Shown piece after piece: positions 20,414-57,331 of a stretch of DNA of 63,461 nt. The translations under genes and the position numbers were made by a program. The stretch's first letter is position 1, and every line of letters starts with the position of its first letter. This DNA comes from Sulfurovum sp. (GTDB lineage Bacteria > Campylobacterota > Campylobacteria > Campylobacterales > Sulfurovaceae). The notes below the pieces were generated by a model. That model was not told the origin of the DNA and ran no database searches. It saw only the letters and a list, made by a program, of their open reading frames with translations. Location: contig JAQVHV010000002.1 of assembly GCA_028696055.1 (NCBI GenBank), positions 1-63,461 on the forward strand, in the 5' to 3' direction.

Positions 20414-21142
20414 ATGACCACACTGTTTGAAAAGGGGGTACGTGCGTATGAAAACAAAGCGTATCCTGCTGCCTATCAGCATTTTGAAGAAGCGGCATCC
20501 GAAGAGCATAAGGATGCGATGGTAAATCTTGCCCTGATGCACATGAAAGGTGCCGGATGCGAAAGAGATCTGCAGTCGGCTGAAAAGTGGTTTGAAAAGG
20601 CGGCATCACTGGGACATACGCATGCGATGATGAGCCTTGCCCATTTCTATGAAAAAGGTATGGACGGGAAGCCCGATAAGGAGAGGGCACTAAAGTACTA
20701 TCTTCAGGCAGCCGATCACGGGGTGGTCGATGCCCAGCTGAAGGCGGGGATGATCTTCAGGGAACAGGGGGAGATCTCCAGGGCAATGCAGTACCTGATC
20801 ACCGCTGCGCACAACAACAACCCGCAGGCACAGGCACTCATTACCTATGTAAGCAATGCAGGGTTAGATGGGAGCTATAACGAAATGTTCAGGTCCCTGG
20901 ATGAAGCCAAACAAAAAGCACTGGTAGAACATATGATTGAAACCAGGATACGTCCTACGCTGGAGGCGGACAGCGGAGGGATTGGGCTGATCAACTATGT
21001 CGCAGGAGATGTCCCTCAAATATGGCTGAACTATCTTGGGGCCTGTTCGGGATGCCATCTTGGGTCTACTTCGACGGCGGATATGCTTCTTGACCGGTTC
21101 GAGGCATTGATCGACAAAAATGTCGTACTTTATCTGATGTGA
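20414..21142 (+). CDS. SEL1-repeat protein fused to a NifU C-terminal-like domain
   Basis: SEL1 repeats (AEKWFEKAASLGHTHAMMSLAHFYEKG) then IRPTLEADSGGIGLINYVAGD...YLGACSGCHLGSTSTADMLLDRF. Confidence 0.8.
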   Translation: MTTLFEKGVRAYENKAYPAAYQHFEEAASEEHKDAMVNLALMHMKGAGCERDLQSAEKWFEKAASLGHTHAMMSLAHFYEKGMDGKPDKERALKYYLQAADHGVVDAQLKAGMIFREQGEISRAMQYLITAAHNNNPQAQALITYVSNAGLDGSYNEMFRSLDEAKQKALVEHMIETRIRPTLEADSGGIGLINYVAGDVPQIWLNYLGACSGCHLGSTSTADMLLDRFEALIDKNVVLYLM

Positions 21143-21155
21143 CATTTCTGTTCCA

Positions 21156-21173
21156 GTGGAACGGAAGTTGCAT
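21156..21173 (+). promoter_or_regulatory. Sigma-54 promoter GTGGAACGGAAGTTGCAT
   Basis: GG-N10-GC upstream of ferredoxin 21299. Confidence 0.75.
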
Positions 21174-21298: not shown

Positions 21299-21691
21299 AT
21301 GGCAGTGATGATTACCGATGCGTGTATCAGTTGTGATGCATGTGCGCCCGAGTGTCCGGTGGCAGCGATCTTAAATGATGAGAGTGAAAAAAATCCCTAT
21401 GCGGGCGAGTACTTTTATGTCAAACCCGAGACATGCGTAGAGTGTGTGGGGCATGCCGACAGCCCGAGATGTGCAGAGGCATGTCCTACGGAGGGGGCGA
21501 TCGTATGGGATATGCCGTATACGACTGACTTCGAAGCCTACTATGCGTCAGGTAATGAAGAGGGAAAATATCTGATCAGGGATCATAAGAAAAAGGGGCT
21601 GATGCTGCCTTCTGTGAAATCACAGGCTTTTATGGAAGAGATCGGTATGGACGTACGCGAATCCCATGCTGATGTGGCAGCATCATTCTAG
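21299..21691 (+). CDS. 4Fe-4S ferredoxin, nif-associated, copy 1
   Basis: CISCDACAPECPVAAI and CVECVGHADSPRCAEACPTEGAI. Confidence 0.9.
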   Translation: MAVMITDACISCDACAPECPVAAILNDESEKNPYAGEYFYVKPETCVECVGHADSPRCAEACPTEGAIVWDMPYTTDFEAYYASGNEEGKYLIRDHKKKGLMLPSVKSQAFMEEIGMDVRESHADVAASF

Positions 21692-21700
21692 GAGCAGAGG

Positions 21701-22078
21701 ATGATTATCGCTTTTGCATCGTCAACCGGGGAAAAGATCGATCAGCATTTCGGCTGGTCAAAATATTTTTATCTCTACCGTATCGATAAGGCGGGGGCAG
21801 AGTTTCTCAAGACCATCGATGCCGAAACGGATCTTGAAGATGAGCATGAAAAACTAAGCTTCAAGATCGAAGCGGTCGGCGAAGCGGATATCATGTACTG
21901 TACACAGATCGGGCCGAAAGCGTCCCAGATGGTGCAAGCAGCAGGTATTCACCCTGTCCGTGCAGCCGAAGGCGAAGCGCTGAAAGATGCGATCGGCAAT
22001 GTGGTCGAAATGCTCAATACGCAGCCGCCGATATGGCTGCTCAGAGCGTTTCACAAAGCTCAGCAGAGGAGTGCATAA
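21701..22078 (+). CDS. NifX-family protein
   Basis: MIIAFASSTGEKIDQHFGWSKYFYLYRID...ADIMYCTQIGPKASQMVQAAGIHPV. Confidence 0.8.
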   Translation: MIIAFASSTGEKIDQHFGWSKYFYLYRIDKAGAEFLKTIDAETDLEDEHEKLSFKIEAVGEADIMYCTQIGPKASQMVQAAGIHPVRAAEGEALKDAIGNVVEMLNTQPPIWLLRAFHKAQQRSA

Positions 22079-22079
22079 G

Positions 22080-22472
22080 ATGGCAGTAGTGATCACTGAG
22101 AGCTGCATCAACTGTGATGCATGTATCGAAGAGTGTCCGGCAACGGCTATCGTCAGTGCGGATGAGTCGCCATTGAGCGGCGGTGAGCATACCTACGTCA
22201 AACCTGAAAAATGCATCGAGTGTGTGGATGCTGCTGTACCTAAGTGTGCGGATGTCTGCCCGACTGAAGGGTGTATCGTCTGGGATATGCCGTACACGGA
22301 AACATATCATGATCACTTCGTTGACAGTGATGATTATGTGATCCGTGTCCACAAGAAGAACGGGCTTATGTCTCCACGGGTATCGCCAAGACCGTTCAGA
22401 GAGAATATCTCTATAGCCGATCGAACCAACCGTGTGAGCGTAGATGAGACGCTCAAACTTTATAATCCGTAA
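22080..22472 (+). CDS. 4Fe-4S ferredoxin, nif-associated, copy 2
   Basis: CINCDACIEECPATAI and CIECVDAAVPKCADVCPTEGCI; ATG at 22080. Confidence 0.9.
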   Translation: MAVVITESCINCDACIEECPATAIVSADESPLSGGEHTYVKPEKCIECVDAAVPKCADVCPTEGCIVWDMPYTETYHDHFVDSDDYVIRVHKKNGLMSPRVSPRPFRENISIADRTNRVSVDETLKLYNP

Positions 22473-22498
22473 TTTAAAGCGTGCGAAAAATCGCACAA

Positions 22499-22521
22499 GA
22501 GCCGTCCGCTGAGGACGACCG
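22499..22521. repeat. Intergenic element GAGCC-GTCCGCTGAGGAC-GACC
   Basis: Reverse-orientation relative of the elements at about 30499 and 39220. Confidence 0.5.
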
Positions 22522-22574
22522 CGTGGGTCGGGACTTTGTTCCGATCCAAATTAGCATAAAAAAAGGAGTCAAGA

Positions 22575-22970
22575 ATGTCAGTAATTATCGATGATACGTG
22601 TATCACATGTGATGCATGTCTGCAAAACTGTCCTGTCAATGCGATCGTAGACGATATGCATAACCCGACAGGAGAGAGCCGTTACTATGTACAGCCTGAA
22701 AAGTGTATCGAGTGTGTCGGTGTGTTTGATGATCCCCAGTGTGCGGCGATCTGCCCCAGTATCGGGTGTATCACCTGGGATATGCCCTATACCAAAGCGT
22801 ATGAAGAGCACTATATGAGCAGTGATCTCTATGCGATCGGTACCAGCAGGAGCGGGAAGCTGCTTTCTCCGTCACACAGGGAGAAAAAATACAGAGAAGA
22901 TATCCCGCTTGAAGCGCGCGGTGTAGGCAAAAAGGTCCAGGAAGAACATGAAGAACTGGAAGCGGGTTAA
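22575..22970 (+). CDS. 4Fe-4S ferredoxin, nif-associated, copy 3
   Basis: CITCDACLQNCPVNAI and CIECVGVFDDPQCAAICPSIGCI. Confidence 0.9.
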   Translation: MSVIIDDTCITCDACLQNCPVNAIVDDMHNPTGESRYYVQPEKCIECVGVFDDPQCAAICPSIGCITWDMPYTKAYEEHYMSSDLYAIGTSRSGKLLSPSHREKKYREDIPLEARGVGKKVQEEHEELEAG

Positions 22971-32084: not shown

Positions 32085-32142
32085 CTTGAAAGAGAGAGGA
32101 AAGGGCACAGGCATACAACTCATCCCATTCTCATTCAAAAAA

Positions 32143-32156
32143 CGACAAAAATGTCA
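32143..32156. promoter_or_regulatory. Palindrome CGACA-AAAA-TGTCA between divergent sigma-54 promoters
   Basis: Matches ACA-W4-TGT motif seen upstream of other nif genes. Confidence 0.5.
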
Positions 32157-32196
32157 TTGTCTGTGTAGGAAGTTGATCGTGATGCCAGGAGTCAGG

Positions 32197-32214
32197 CTGG
32201 AATATATTTTGCAT
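32197..32214 (+). promoter_or_regulatory. Sigma-54 promoter CTGGAATATATTTTGCAT (nifB)
   Basis: GG-N10-GC about 70 bp upstream of nifB ATG. Confidence 0.75.
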
Positions 32215-36516: not shown

Positions 36517-36783
36517 ATGAGCAGCAAAGAGGAGATCCTTCGGATGCAGATCTGTGAGTGCGGAGAGAAGAGCGTGGCAGAGGCGATCGATATCTTTCAG
36601 GATACTTCTCTGCCGTTCAAAAAAGCAAAAAAGCTGGTGACGGGGTGCAACAAGATATGCTGTCGTGAAGCTTTGGCGAAACTTTATGAGATGCAGCAGT
36701 TTGGCAGGTATGACTATGATGAGATCGAAATGATGATCGAAGAAGCTAGAAGCGTTGGGTACCGTTGCCGTCAAAGCATCTGA
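36517..36783 (+). CDS. Small Cys-rich BFD-like protein
   Basis: QICECGEKSVAEAIDIFQDTSLPFKKAKKLVTGCNKICCREAL. Confidence 0.55.
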   Translation: MSSKEEILRMQICECGEKSVAEAIDIFQDTSLPFKKAKKLVTGCNKICCREALAKLYEMQQFGRYDYDEIEMMIEEARSVGYRCRQSI

Positions 36784-37625: not shown

Positions 37626-37685
37626 CTCTTTTTTGTTCTTGATACGGTTTTGTTCTTACTTGTCGTATCTTTGTCGTGAAAAAAC

Positions 37686-37703
37686 CGGGAACGGATTGTG
37701 CAC
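37686..37703 (+). promoter_or_regulatory. Sigma-54 promoter CGGGAACGGATTGTGCAC (nifH)
   Basis: GG-N10-GC about 43 bp upstream of nifH ATG. Confidence 0.65.
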
Positions 37704-37734
37704 TAGTGTTTGATGACATTTGATTACAACATAA

Positions 37735-38746: not shown

Positions 38747-39121
38747 ATGTTTATTTTAGGTTTCCACTTTCCTGCAGATATGGGGAATTCGATTGAAGAT
38801 ACAGCAGTTCTAGAAAAACTTGACGCACAGGTAGCTGAGGTTGGTATCGATGATATCACAGCGATCGAGCTTGAGATGGGTCTTAGAGGTAAAGAGGTTC
38901 ATAAGATCACTTACACCAATAAAGACACTTTCATGTTCAAAGCATTGGCTGCTTACCTTAAAGATGAGACATACGAAGAAAAAGATGGTGAGAAGTATCT
39001 AGTATATACAAACAGATACCAAATGTCTGAGCTCTCCAAGAGACTTGATTCTGATGATGAAACAATGGCGCTTTGTAAAGCCTTTGACTCTATGGAGCAA
39101 TTCAGAGTAAAAGCGGCGTAA
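38747..39121 (+). CDS. Uncharacterised protein encoded between nifH and nifD
   Basis: 124-aa frame with RBS aaaggagaa, MFILGFHFPADMGNSIEDTAVLEKLDAQVAEVGIDDI. Confidence 0.75.
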   Translation: MFILGFHFPADMGNSIEDTAVLEKLDAQVAEVGIDDITAIELEMGLRGKEVHKITYTNKDTFMFKALAAYLKDETYEEKDGEKYLVYTNRYQMSELSKRLDSDDETMALCKAFDSMEQFRVKAA

Positions 39122-42474: not shown

Positions 42475-43122
42475 TTATAGCAGCTTATCATCATACAGGA
42501 TCATAAGTTCATCATAGAGATAACTCTTTTCGAGTTTCTTCGTATGTGCTTCATAGATAATGCTCTGTGCACTATCAAGTTTTTCTCTATTGCCTTTTAC
42601 TTTTGAGACAATGTTGTGAATGTATTCTCCTGCCAGTTCTTCAGGGTCAGTGTTTTTTACCAACTGATCCAACTGGGGCATCCCGCCTTTGGGAAGCGGC
42701 AGGTCGCAATAGTAGTCACCCAGACGATTGATCCCCCAGTAGACCAGTCCCAGTGTCAGATAAAAGTTGAGTGACTGTGGTACACAAGTGATACGAAAAC
42801 GGCGTACACACTTTTCTTCTGCAATCTGAAAAACACGTTCAAAGAGCTGACTGGCATATCCCTTTCTTCTGAATTGCAGTGGCGTAAAAATGTTGTGGAT
42901 TGTAATGTACTCATTATAACGGTCAATTTTGTAGAAGATGTAGCAGAGGTGCTCTTTTTTTTCATTGGAAAGCGTGATACATCCGTGTACCTTCCAGCTG
43001 AAGTGTCTATCCCACCAGTGCAATGCCAGGTTGGCAAATCCAAAACTTTTTTTGTCTTTGATCTGTGCGATAGAGTCGATATAGTCATTTCTATTGAGAT
43101 GTTCAAGGTGAAATTTTTGCAA
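42475..43122 (-). CDS. GNAT-like acetyltransferase domain protein
   Basis: IHNIFTPLQFRRKGYASQLFERVFQIAEEKCVRRFRI. Confidence 0.65.
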   Translation of the reverse strand: MQKFHLEHLNRNDYIDSIAQIKDKKSFGFANLALHWWDRHFSWKVHGCITLSNEKKEHLCYIFYKIDRYNEYITIHNIFTPLQFRRKGYASQLFERVFQIAEEKCVRRFRITCVPQSLNFYLTLGLVYWGINRLGDYYCDLPLPKGGMPQLDQLVKNTDPEELAGEYIHNIVSKVKGNREKLDSAQSIIYEAHTKKLEKSYLYDELMILYDDKLL

Positions 43123-43373
43123 CGGTTATCCTTTTTTCTATAGATGAAAAAGGAAGGCGTGAAGTACCTGATGCAAAAATAGAGTAATACTACACTCTAC
43201 CATTTAATTCTACGGGCGAAAGAGAGAGAGTGATCGATTTTTAAACAAATGTTGTCTTTGGTTTCCCCGCGCATCAAAATAGTGTTGTTTTGAGTTTTTT
43301 CGGACACTCTGTAGCTCGAAGATGAGGGAAACATACAAATTCACCTTCCACTATGCTACGAATACGACAAAAA

Positions 43374-43387
43374 CGACATTTTTGTCG
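43374..43387. promoter_or_regulatory. Perfect palindrome CGACA-TTTT-TGTCG
   Basis: 16 bp upstream of the sigma-54 -24 GG at 43403; same motif as nifB upstream. Confidence 0.5.
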
Positions 43388-43400
43388 TTTTTTGGATTTA

Positions 43401-43418
43401 TTGGTATGAAAATTGCAT
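43401..43418 (+). promoter_or_regulatory. Sigma-54 promoter TTGGTATGAAAATTGCAT
   Basis: GG-N10-GC upstream of the 52-aa ORF. Confidence 0.75.
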
Positions 43419-43491
43419 ATTTTGGCTTGTTTTTTGGGAACGGAAGTTGTATGGGTGTTAGATGTAAACATATTTAACCAAAGGAGACAAG

Positions 43492-43650
43492 ATGCATGAC
43501 TGTAACATTATCGAATTGGAAGATTTCGGATTTAACCACTATATCCATCATCTGGATGAGTTGGAAGGTGACGGTTTCGGATATAAAAATGAGCTGGACT
43601 TTATCTACGATCTGACAGATGACACTGCGGAAACAGAGTGGGAGGAGTAG
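43492..43650 (+). CDS. Unlisted 52-aa acidic protein
   Basis: RBS aaggagac then MHDCNIIELEDFGFNHYIHHLDELEGDGFGYKNELDFIYDLTDDTAETEWEE-stop; below the ORF track cutoff. Confidence 0.65.
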   Translation: MHDCNIIELEDFGFNHYIHHLDELEGDGFGYKNELDFIYDLTDDTAETEWEE

Positions 43651-43805: not shown

Positions 43806-43823
43806 CTGGCACATAAATTGCAT
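43806..43823 (+). promoter_or_regulatory. Sigma-54 promoter CTGGCACATAAATTGCAT (nifE)
   Basis: Consensus TGGCAC-N5-TTGCA; supports the nifE start at 43858. Confidence 0.85.
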
Positions 43824-43857: not shown

Positions 43858-45234
43858 ATGGTCAACAGAGCCAAAATCAAAGAGCTGCTCAATGAGAGTG
43901 CCTGCTCTCACAGCAAAGATAAAAAACCCGGAGAGGGGTGCGATAAGCCAAAACCGGGACTTACCGCAGGAGGGTGTGCGTTTGACGGTGCGCAGATCTC
44001 GCTTTTTCCCTATGCCGATGCGGTCCATCTGGTCCATGGCCCGCAAACCTGTCTTGGGGCATCCTGGGAGACAAGAGAGACACTGAGTTCCTATGAAGGA
44101 CGCGACCATACGGTCATGGGATTCACCACGGGTATCAGAACCAATGATGTGATCTTCGGCGGGGACAAGAGGCTGGAAGCGTCGATAGACTTCATTATGA
44201 AGGAGTATGCGCCTGAAGCGATCTTTGTCTACTCGACCTGTGTCACGGCAATGGTGGGGGATGATATCGATATGACCTGCAAGCGGGGAAGCGAGAAACA
44301 CGGAGTACCGGTGGTACCTGTACATGCTCCCGGGTTTGTCGGCGGGAAGAACCTGGGGTCACGGCTTGCGGGTGAAGCAGTGCTGGAGCATCTGATCGGT
44401 ACCAAAGAGCCGGAGTTTACCACCCCTTATGATATCAACCTGATCGGAGACTATAACGTCACGGGAGATATGTGGCAGTATCTGCCTCTGTTTGAGAAGA
44501 TCGGGATACGTGTGCTCAGTTCACTCAGCGGCGACGGAAGGGTAGGAAGCATCAGGACGGCACACCGTGCCAGGCTCAATGTGATCGTCTGTGCAAAATC
44601 CCTGATCACCCTGTGCCGAAAGATGAAAGAGCAGTACGGTATCCCTTGGATCTCTGTCTCTTTTTACGGAAAACGCGATACCGCCTTTGCGATCCGCGAG
44701 ATCGTCAGGGCTTTGGGAGACGAGAAGCTGATCGCCAAAGCCGAAGAGGTTTTGACGGAGGAAGAGGAGAAGCTTGAAGCACGATTGAAACCCTACAGGG
44801 AGATGTTCGCGGGCAAAAAAGCCGTACTCAATACCGGGGGGAACAAGTCATGGTCCATCGCTTCAGGGCTGCAGGACCTGGGTATCGAGGTCGTGGCAAC
44901 TTCTATCAGAAAATCCACGGAGGATGATATCGAAAAAGCCAAAGCGTATCTGGGGCCCAATGGGGTTTTGATGAAAGCACCCGCAGCAGAGCAGGCCAAA
45001 GTGATCGATGAGAAAGGCGCGGACATCTTGCTTGCCGGAGGCAGAAGCCTCTATACGGCGATCAAAAAGAAGATCTCTTTTATCGATGTCAACCAGGAGA
45101 AGAAGGTAAGCTACGGGGGATTTGAAGGGCTGCTCAATCTGGCTGAAGACCTCAGGCATGCTTTTCTCAGCCCTGTCTTTGCCAATGTGAGCGAAAAAGC
45201 GCCCTGGGAAACTGTATCGATGGAGGCAGAGTAA
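43858..45234 (+). CDS. nifE: Nitrogenase cofactor scaffold NifE
   Basis: GGCAFDGAQISLFPYADAVHLVHGPQTCLGASWETRETLSSYEG; start after the sigma-54 promoter. Confidence 0.95.
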   Translation: MVNRAKIKELLNESACSHSKDKKPGEGCDKPKPGLTAGGCAFDGAQISLFPYADAVHLVHGPQTCLGASWETRETLSSYEGRDHTVMGFTTGIRTNDVIFGGDKRLEASIDFIMKEYAPEAIFVYSTCVTAMVGDDIDMTCKRGSEKHGVPVVPVHAPGFVGGKNLGSRLAGEAVLEHLIGTKEPEFTTPYDINLIGDYNVTGDMWQYLPLFEKIGIRVLSSLSGDGRVGSIRTAHRARLNVIVCAKSLITLCRKMKEQYGIPWISVSFYGKRDTAFAIREIVRALGDEKLIAKAEEVLTEEEEKLEARLKPYREMFAGKKAVLNTGGNKSWSIASGLQDLGIEVVATSIRKSTEDDIEKAKAYLGPNGVLMKAPAAEQAKVIDEKGADILLAGGRSLYTAIKKKISFIDVNQEKKVSYGGFEGLLNLAEDLRHAFLSPVFANVSEKAPWETVSMEAE

Positions 45235-49581: not shown

Positions 49582-50856
49582 ATGGCAGTCAAACAGGTCT
49601 TTCATCTCAAACAAAAACAGATACCGCGTCTCTCTATGCAGACATGGTTGCCTTTGCTGCAGTGTTCACTTTCGGACCTGGAAAAACATATACAGAATAT
49701 CGCCAATGAAAACCCCTGTCTGGAGGTGACTTCCGGCTTTGAGGTAGCGGAAAGTTCGTCAAGCAGTACGCATCAGGCATATCTCTCCTATCAGAACCGC
49801 GTCTCCAATGCATCAAGCGATGAGATAGAGTGGATGAGTATCTCTACCCAGTCACTCTATGAAAAACTCGATGAGCAGATCGCCGCACCGCTCTTCCCTA
49901 CACCGATCTCTCAGAAGATTGCAAAACAGATCATCTTTTATATCAGTGACGAGGGGTATTTTGAAGGAGATATTGAGGAGATCGCCGTACAGTGTAATGT
50001 ACAGGCAGCCCAGGTCGAGTCGGTCAGACAGCGTTTTGCCTATCTCCAGCCTTACGGGGTGGGGGCAAGGGACTATAAGGAGTCCTTTTTGTTCCAGCTC
50101 AACGAGTTTGACCTGGATGATGATATGAGTCTGCTGCTCAGTGCGATGATCATACGGTTCGAATCCCTGGAAAAGTTTATCAGCCATCCAAGATTTTCCG
50201 AAGCAAAAGAGGTACTAAAGCGTCTGAAAAACCCTCCGGCGATCAGATATATGGCAAGCGAACCGCCTATCCTGCCAGATCTTTTTGTCTATTTTGACGA
50301 AGATGGGCTGACGATAAAAATGAACCATGCATTCTATCCGGATCTCAAAGTGACACAGATCGACAAATATGAGAACTTTGCAAAGCAGAAGTTCAAAGAG
50401 GCAAGGGAACTGGTCAATCTTTTGGATCTGAGAAAAAGTACGCTCTATAATATTACCCTCGTACTGATAGAGAAGCAGTATCCGTTTTTTATGGGAGGAT
50501 CGTTGAAGCCTTTGAAGCTCCAGGATGTTGCCGAGGAGCTTGGATTTAATGAATCGACCATCTCCCGTGCGATAAGCGGAAAGTATCTGGAGACTGAGCA
50601 GGGTATTTTCTCTTTCAAGGAGTTCTTCTCCCATGCGATCGGCAATGTGTCCACGGCCGAGCTCAAAGCATTTATCCAAAGGTTGGTTCAGAGTGAGGAT
50701 AAAAACAAGCCTTACAGCGACAAGGCGATCCATGAGATGCTTGAGGCACGTTTCGGCATCCGGATGGTACGAAGATCTATCGCCAAGTACCGGCAGGAGC
50801 TGGATATCCCTTCCTTCAAGGAGAGGAAGTTCCTTTATCAGCTTGAGATGCTGTAA
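49582..50856 (+). CDS. rpoN: RNA polymerase sigma-54 factor RpoN
   Basis: PRLSMQTWLPLLQCSLSDLEKHIQNIANENPCLEV; HTH ELGFNESTISRAISGKYLETEQGIFSFKEFFSHAI; RpoN box VRRSIAKYRQ. Confidence 0.93.
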   Translation: MAVKQVFHLKQKQIPRLSMQTWLPLLQCSLSDLEKHIQNIANENPCLEVTSGFEVAESSSSSTHQAYLSYQNRVSNASSDEIEWMSISTQSLYEKLDEQIAAPLFPTPISQKIAKQIIFYISDEGYFEGDIEEIAVQCNVQAAQVESVRQRFAYLQPYGVGARDYKESFLFQLNEFDLDDDMSLLLSAMIIRFESLEKFISHPRFSEAKEVLKRLKNPPAIRYMASEPPILPDLFVYFDEDGLTIKMNHAFYPDLKVTQIDKYENFAKQKFKEARELVNLLDLRKSTLYNITLVLIEKQYPFFMGGSLKPLKLQDVAEELGFNESTISRAISGKYLETEQGIFSFKEFFSHAIGNVSTAELKAFIQRLVQSEDKNKPYSDKAIHEMLEARFGIRMVRRSIAKYRQELDIPSFKERKFLYQLEML

Positions 50857-55642: not shown

Positions 55643-57331
55643 CTAGAGTTCTATCTCGTATTTTTTGATCTTGTAACCGATCTGTCTGGGTGTCATACCC
55701 AGCTGTTTGGCTGCTTTTGTCTGGATTCCCCTGTTTTCTATGAGCGCTTTGAGGATAGCTTCTTTCTCTATCTCCTGCAGACTGTTTTTTGCAAACGGGG
55801 TGTGACCGCCGGTTGTTTTTGGGATTTCCTGGCCATTATCTGCCGCCTCTTCTCTTTTTTTTGGTATTTCCGCAACCTCCTGCGGCATATGCATTTTTTG
55901 GAAGTTAAAGGGCATGACATGGTTGAGCATCTCCGGCTGAAGCTCTCCTTGCGGACAGATCAGTACGATACGTTCCATCGTATTTTGAAGCTCCCTGATG
56001 TTCCCCGGCCATGGGTATTCCAGGAGGATCTCCAGTGCCGCTTTTGAAAAATACATCTCTTTGTGGTGTTCCCGCATATATTTCTTCAGATAGTGTTCGA
56101 TAAGCAGCTGAATATCCTCATAGCGGTCGCGGAGAGGGGGAAGGTTGACAGGGATGACATTCAGCCGGTAGAAAAGATCTTCCCGAAACTCTCCCTTTTT
56201 GACCATCTCTTCAAGGTTTCTGTTGGTTGCGGCCACCAGGCGTACGTTCGTTTTGATCGTTTTTGTTCCCCCTACACGCTCAAACTCTTTCTCCTGCAGG
56301 ATACGCAGCAGTTTCACCTGCAGTGCCGGCGTGATATCTCCGATCTCATCAAGAAACAGGGTTCCCCCGTCTGCCAGTTCAAAGCGTCCTTTACGCATCT
56401 CTTTGGCGTCGGTAAAAGCGCCTTTTTCATGGCCGAAAAGTTCTGACTCCAGCAGCGTTTCACTGATCGCTGCACAGTTAAGCTTGATAAAGGGCCCGTT
56501 CTTTCTCGGACTGATATTGTGTACGGCCGCGGCAATGAGCTCTTTCCCCGTACCGGTCTCTCCGCGTACCAGTATCGTGGCATCCGAAGGTGCGACAGTT
56601 TCAAGTATGCTGAAAATCTGCTGCATGACGGTGCTTTTTCCGATAATGTTCTCAAACTTGTAGTTGCTTAGCATTTCATCCCGGTAATAGGTCTTTAGAT
56701 CCTGGATATCCTCTTTCTCTTTTGAAAAGCGTCTATGGACATTGAGTGCCCCCAGAGAGATCGATCCGAGTATCGTCAGCATTCGTACAATTTCATCAAA
56801 GTCCAATGGGGCCTCTTTCCGGAGGTTAGCGGAGATCACCCCTACGACACCGTCTTTTTGGATGATCGGTACAGCGACATAGGAGATCAGCGAGGTATGC
56901 AGTGCCCCCATTTTATTGAGATAGTTGATATTGTTATGGATATTTTCGATGACGATGGGTTCTGCACTTTTTGCTGCCAGACCGGTCGCCCCTTCTCCTA
57001 TTTTGTAGATCGCCATACTTTTTTGTTGCGGAGTCAGATCGATCGAGGCATATGGTTCAAGAAGTGTTTTGTCGTCGTTCAGCAAAAAAAGCGCACAGCG
57101 ATCAAGGTACCCGTGGTGTTTGAGCATACGCATCCCTTTTTCGATGCTCTCTTTGATATTTTCAGAACTGCTGAGAAGCACAGCGATATCATAAAGCAGC
57201 TCTATCTCTTTATAGGCGAACATCAGAGAACAGGCACGGCACTCTTCGGGAAAATCTATTGGTAACATCTTTCTCACTTTTGTATGGAATGTTATACCGA
57301 TAGTACCATAGAGAAAAAGTATTTTGATCAT
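55643..57331 (-). CDS. nifA: Sigma-54-dependent activator NifA (GAF, AAA+, Fis HTH)
   Basis: LVRGETGTGKELIAAAVHNISPRKNGPFIKLNCAAI, ESELFGHEKGAFTDA, C-terminal KAAKQLGMTPRQIGYKIKKYEI. Confidence 0.95.
   Translation of the reverse strand: MIKILFLYGTIGITFHTKVRKMLPIDFPEECRACSLMFAYKEIELLYDIAVLLSSSENIKESIEKGMRMLKHHGYLDRCALFLLNDDKTLLEPYASIDLTPQQKSMAIYKIGEGATGLAAKSAEPIVIENIHNNINYLNKMGALHTSLISYVAVPIIQKDGVVGVISANLRKEAPLDFDEIVRMLTILGSISLGALNVHRRFSKEKEDIQDLKTYYRDEMLSNYKFENIIGKSTVMQQIFSILETVAPSDATILVRGETGTGKELIAAAVHNISPRKNGPFIKLNCAAISETLLESELFGHEKGAFTDAKEMRKGRFELADGGTLFLDEIGDITPALQVKLLRILQEKEFERVGGTKTIKTNVRLVAATNRNLEEMVKKGEFREDLFYRLNVIPVNLPPLRDRYEDIQLLIEHYLKKYMREHHKEMYFSKAALEILLEYPWPGNIRELQNTMERIVLICPQGELQPEMLNHVMPFNFQKMHMPQEVAEIPKKREEAADNGQEIPKTTGGHTPFAKNSLQEIEKEAILKALIENRGIQTKAAKQLGMTPRQIGYKIKKYEIEL

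Follow-up and report, generated by a model that had tools for sequence, protein, structure and literature searches.

A small open reading frame in the 63,461-nucleotide Sulfurovum stretch analysed here (the window) is a real, selected gene that is almost confined to nitrogen-fixing Campylobacterota. It is associated with the nif genes and is preceded by a conserved promoter architecture. Its product represents a previously undescribed family, outside any named one, whose members are acidic proteins of 45-58 aa encoded by nitrogen-fixing Campylobacterota. Our best guess, which we consider probable, is that the small protein is an accessory protein of the nif regulon, induced by NifA and sigma-54.

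Table 1. Features of the small gene and its surroundings (positions of the window)
Feature	Position	Strand	Basis
Third palindrome-like site, 47 bp before the sigma-54 site (21157-21172) of the ferredoxin gene	21111..21126	.	
Second copy of the palindrome, in the region separating nifB from a divergent gene; 57 bp on, a sigma-54 site (32198-32213)	32142..32157	.	
Divergent GNAT-type gene upstream of the small ORF	42475..43122	-	
Palindrome ACGACA-N4-TGTCGT, likely UAS of a sigma-54 enhancer-binding protein, probably NifA	43373..43388	.	conserved upstream of ~25 homologues
Element A, GGTATGAAAATTGCATA, sigma-54-like; perfect -12, first G of -24 not conserved	43403..43419	+	
Element B, GGAACGGAAGTTGTAT, likelier main sigma-54 promoter; -24 GGAAC, -12 TTGT	43437..43452	+	
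Ribosome-binding site AAGGAGAC of the small ORF	43481..43488	+	AAGGA-type RBS in homologues
Small ORF, 52-aa acidic protein; pI 4.05, net charge -16, core IIELEDFGFNHYIHHLDE	43492..43650	+	sequence, translation, homologues
Separate canonical sigma-54 promoter of nifE, TGGCACATAAATTGCA	43807..43822	+	
nifE	43858..45234	+	TIGR01283, 527 bits
nif-linked sigma-54 gene (rpoN)	49582..50856	+	Pfam Sigma54 AID/CBD/DBD; TIGR02395, 337 bits
NifA-like activator (GAF, AAA+, Fis-type HTH), candidate binder of the palindrome	55643..57331	-	Pfam; TIGR01817

The ATG, the ribosome-binding site and the exact peptide given in a preliminary description of the locus are all present in the sequence and its translation. 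For the closest comparable pairs (window/G001, window/G029 and G001/G029) pN/pS is 0.07-0.12; pN is 0.07-0.11 although synonymous sites are almost saturated, a ratio of ~0.1. Such ratios indicate strong purifying selection on the coding frame. A chance ORF, or conservation of the DNA only, is ruled out by pN/pS together with the phylogenetic spread. The palindrome followed by a run of T does score as a terminator-like hairpin, as would be expected if only a promoter or terminator were conserved and the ORF were not a gene. That explanation is hardly credible and, on these comparisons, is already contradicted by the selection result, as the amino acids are conserved although synonymous sites are near saturation. 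The length and start of the ORF are also conserved, and the gene travels together with its promoter to different places. The preliminary description had named a conserved flank around an unconserved peptide as a finding that would speak against a gene; the opposite was found. The window and G029 are rearranged with respect to each other, and the peptide and promoter elements persist. While the remaining flank diverges, the palindrome, A and B hold a spacing that is fixed or differs by one helical turn.

The occurrence of the gene follows that of nif. Clear homologues were obtained from G001 (98%), G029 (80%) and G004 (65%) in a search of 60 relatives. These three and the window genome are the only nifE-bearing genomes among 61 genus members searched for nifE, and in the 37 genus genomes searched for both, a homologue is present in 4/4 with nifE and 0/33 without it. 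In the order sample, an alignment search found the peptide in 12/299 genomes, all 12 of them with nifE, a count from which G230 and G253 were left out as chance matches; nifE overall is present in 73/299 (Fisher p 2e-8 for the association). In a second family the peptide is found in 33/200 genomes, 31 of which carry nifE or nifH (28 with nifE, and three of the remaining five with nifH; Fisher 1e-11 for nifE alone). The other two positives, G360 and G390, are draft genomes in which neither gene was seen. Since no copy is detectable in 61 of the 73 nif-positive genomes of the order sample, the small protein is not essential for nitrogenase. A scan of genome contigs returned 8 loci, every one from Campylobacterota or an unclassified MAG, and a search for plasmid copies found none. 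One locus (L135, genome G366) carries two tandem copies, 232 bp apart.

Members of the family mostly have a pI of ~4.05, with net charges of -13 to -18, and share the core motif ExED-x3-NH-x2-HH-xDE. Among 17 aligned members E8, N15, H16, H19 and H20 are invariant, and E10, D11, E34, E47 and W50 almost invariant. The most diverged members (L142-L144) have CHxxNH where others have NHxxHH, e.g. EVEDFNFCHYINHF. Profile and sequence searches of Pfam, NCBIfam and PDB gave no family match, and identity with a known family was ruled out on that ground. AlphaFold2 with the 17-member alignment reached a pLDDT of 50.6 with no confident fold, a model too poor for a fold search. The conserved histidines and acidic residues may constitute a metal-binding or docking motif; given the AlphaFold result, metal binding is a reading of the conserved residues. 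No description of the small protein was found in open-access papers, and passages of a report on a nif-bearing Campylobacterales genome with eighteen genes related to nitrogen fixation (PMC4674564) make no mention of such a protein.

The small gene is usually found in the nif region, placed between nifK and nifE in the window, as in some relatives, and at other points of the region in others. Its distance from nifE is ~0.2-1 kb in some genomes, and 13-200 kb or on other contigs in others; in the group of G248, G323, G344 and G373 it is ~60-70 kb. The proposal that the protein is a partner of NifEN found no specific support, and is weakened because the gene is not always beside nifE. In the window nifE has its own canonical sigma-54 site, which makes the small gene a separate transcription unit.

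A good sigma-54 promoter and a perfect palindrome had been proposed upstream of the ORF. The GG-N10-GC is present at 43403-43416, 76 bp before the ATG, but the GG at -24 is lost in most relatives. In all 25 distinct loci compared, this element (A) retains the second G and the GC, but it has GG in only 4 and AG in 18. The palindrome was also found, with perfect arms of 6+6; its spacer TTTT is, however, not self-complementary. The arms extend to 10+10 when the A/T flanks are included. The palindrome and A occur in 16/19 of the upstream regions first collected, at a near-constant spacing of 31 bp (31-32) counted from the start of the palindrome, and B, in the form RGAAYR-N5-TGTAW, in 19/19 loci of this set and most of the later set. 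A and B are 32-34 bp apart, or 23-24 bp in L040 and L057, about one helical turn shorter. The arrangement of ORF, A and palindrome recurs in ~25 distinct homologous loci, beyond what chance would give. The loci fetched later, a largely independent test of the motif, repeat the order palindrome, A and B in most cases. An Rfam search of the region gave no credible element.

In the window A has GG-N10-GC and B has GG-N10-GT. B is retained without the palindrome and A in L047, L055, L056 and L147. The TGTA form of B is missing in L136, L139 and L142-L144, and L142-L144 carry a canonical GG-N10-GC with TGCA at its position (CGGTATGTCTTATGCA, TGGTACAGCTTATGCA, TGGCACACCTTATGCA). As B outlasts A and the palindrome, and is canonical in the most distant relatives, it is the likelier principal sigma-54 promoter; the leader would be ~30 nt. 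The centre of the palindrome would be near -81 of the start if B is used, and near -46 if A is used. For sigma-54 activators, -81 is a usual position of the enhancer-binding protein and -46 is unusually close. A is a second sigma-54-like site, and may act as a weak promoter, as a holding site or in some other way. The reading of A as an independent transcription factor palindrome, TATG-N7-CATA, was considered; the sigma-54-like reading is preferred because the GC never varies and the left arm does so in the manner of a -24 element, with Y at two positions.

The window contains 33 relaxed matches to the palindrome, more than the 17.9 +/- 4.4 counted in shuffles. The third palindrome-like site of Table 1 may be partly coincidental, as it lies inside the 3' end of the upstream coding sequence. 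At the nifH promoter (GGGAACGGATTGTGCA; 37630-37705) two TGTCGT half-sites occur in direct repeat, with no full palindrome. Palindromes found genome-wide in G248 and G162 near nifN and a Sel1/NifU-domain gene lie within coding sequence, and were set aside as probably coincidental.

The best match of the NifA-like activator is TIGR01817 nifA at 513.9 bits, just below the cut-off of 528.9. The classical NifA site TGT-N10-ACA (PMC2820453) was not found within 260 bp upstream of nine checked starts, the small gene included; binding of NifA to the palindrome is therefore a proposal.

Across loci, the commonest neighbour of the small gene is a divergent moxR/VWA operon, and in many relatives the palindrome lies between the two. 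The operon, a nif-associated clade of MoxR AAA+ and VWA/DUF2201 proteins, adjoins the peptide gene in L022, L039-L041, L050-L054 and others, and has its own sigma-54-like promoter, CG-N10-GC (GG-N10-GC in L090, L091 and L095). In the order sample, the 16 genomes that score best for this clade all carry nifE. The offsets from the palindrome to the moxR promoter are 28, 38, 39, 58, 79, 80, 89, 90 and 109 bp, and fit a 10.2-bp period with R = 0.94, equalled by 0/20000 random sets, in what is a generous test on related loci. Such helical phasing is what an enhancer site working through looping would show. A single helical phase for all palindrome-promoter pairs was not upheld; phasing is clear only for the moxR promoters and when the two spacings of B are compared. 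A high-scoring nif-type VWA gene is present in 10/12 peptide-positive and 7/61 peptide-negative nif-positive genomes (Fisher p 1.7e-6). The association is not obligatory, since the window genome lacks a nif-type VWA.

Other neighbours of the small gene include CowN, a hemerythrin-like protein (L022) and GNAT enzymes. Several other loci have relatives of the window's divergent GNAT-type gene close to the peptide gene. In L048 a CowN homologue (PF20543, 2e-25) lies on the opposite strand, ~220-520 bp after the peptide start, and an ORF homologous to it is near the peptide gene in L039.

That the ORF encodes a small nif accessory protein, as was suggested from the window alone, is well supported by its conservation, its co-occurrence with nif and its nif-type promoter architecture. 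We propose that the gene forms a transcription unit of its own, induced along with the nif regulon. A sigma-54 enhancer-binding protein, presumably the NifA-like protein of Table 1, would bind the palindrome and activate sigma-54 RNA polymerase at B, at A or at both, with B the likelier. The product would most likely work as a nitrogenase accessory factor, and the most economical account is that it acts on nitrogenase, on nitrogenase assembly or on nitrogenase protection, with no choice made among the three. Its N-terminal ExED-x3-NH-x2-HH-xDE might bind a metal ion or dock on nitrogenase or a maturation protein, and the acidic variable tail could add charge-based contacts. The metal-binding or docking detail, taken by itself, is tentative and somewhat doubtful.

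The neighbourhood of the gene raises the alternative that the small protein serves as adaptor or substrate for the divergent nif-type MoxR AAA+ ATPase/VWA (DUF2201) pair, the pair being a chaperone-like machine of metalloprotein maturation. Its position as commonest neighbour, the skewed distribution of the nif-type VWA and the common palindrome at a helix-phased distance from the moxR promoter all favour such a link. Co-regulation is, however, no proof of contact; the window genome and G215 keep the peptide without the nif-type pair (having only generic relatives of ~345 bits), and several nif-positive genomes have the pair without the peptide. We regard this alternative as unlikely, though deserving of some weight. 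To our knowledge, no described MoxR/VWA system includes such a peptide. A wider version is rather improbable: that a new small-protein family works with a nif-specific MoxR/VWA machine in nitrogenase maturation or protection, under a NifA variant with its own palindrome and a composite promoter in which two sigma-54 sites stand in tandem and both deviate in one of their halves (the first G of -24 in A, the C of -12 in B).

A small, very acidic protein with no confident fold, whose gene is directly under nif-type control, could also be a feedback regulator, produced while NifA is active, that adjusts nif expression or the activity of nitrogenase by binding NifA, PII or the sigma-54 polymerase, and a small protein regulating nitrogen metabolism is known in Methanosarcina (PMC10714827). 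The conserved His/acid core suggests contact with a metal or an enzyme and not a DNA mimic, and no sequence link to any known anti-activator was seen; we consider a regulatory role rather unlikely as well. Less likely again is a role in protecting nitrogenase from an inhibitor (CO or O2), in the way that CowN guards it against CO (PMC8047169). Its size and nif association resemble CowN, and the CowN homologues and the hemerythrin-like protein among its neighbours would suit such a role. Yet 0/17 members match CowN, and where CowN is encoded alongside, a second protein for CO would be superfluous. The nitrogenase accessory role remains the preferred reading.

Among known systems, CowN (PF20543) is alike in being a small, nif-associated nitrogenase accessory protein, but is ~95-100 aa long and has its own Pfam model. 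NifT, NifW, NifZ and the Rop-like CCE_0567 are likewise short, nif-clustered and poorly understood; the small protein differs in matching no Pfam or NCBIfam model, and NifW, NifZ and Rop-like proteins are separately encoded in the window. The upstream palindrome, the sigma-54-like -24/-12 and the presence of a NifA-like protein and rpoN in the island recall NifA/sigma-54 nif promoters (PMC2820453). Classical nif promoters have the UAS TGT-N10-ACA, whereas the small gene has ACGACA-N4-TGTCGT and two tandem sigma-54-like sites, of which one usually has AG at -24 and the other has GT at -12. The divergent MoxR ATPase and DUF2201 VWA protein of relatives, with the palindrome in common, resemble RavA-ViaA MoxR-VWA pairs (PMC3893208), but the small gene is not always with the pair.

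The set of genes that support nitrogenase is still under refinement, and small proteins are overlooked systematically. This family of ~50 aa, conserved, nif-restricted and unannotated, is a concrete candidate for an unrecognised accessory factor of nitrogenase in Campylobacterota, and the region upstream of the gene suggests a NifA operator different from TGT-N10-ACA.

Other small genes were observed in the window. A 124-aa protein encoded between nifH and nifD (38747-39121) is conserved in G001 and G029 and has no Pfam or NCBIfam match, and downstream of the Rop-like gene, 36517-36783 encodes a conserved protein of 88 aa with no credible family match. Three tandem, divergent dicluster-type ferredoxins are encoded at 21299-22970, downstream of a Sel1-repeat/NifU-domain protein.
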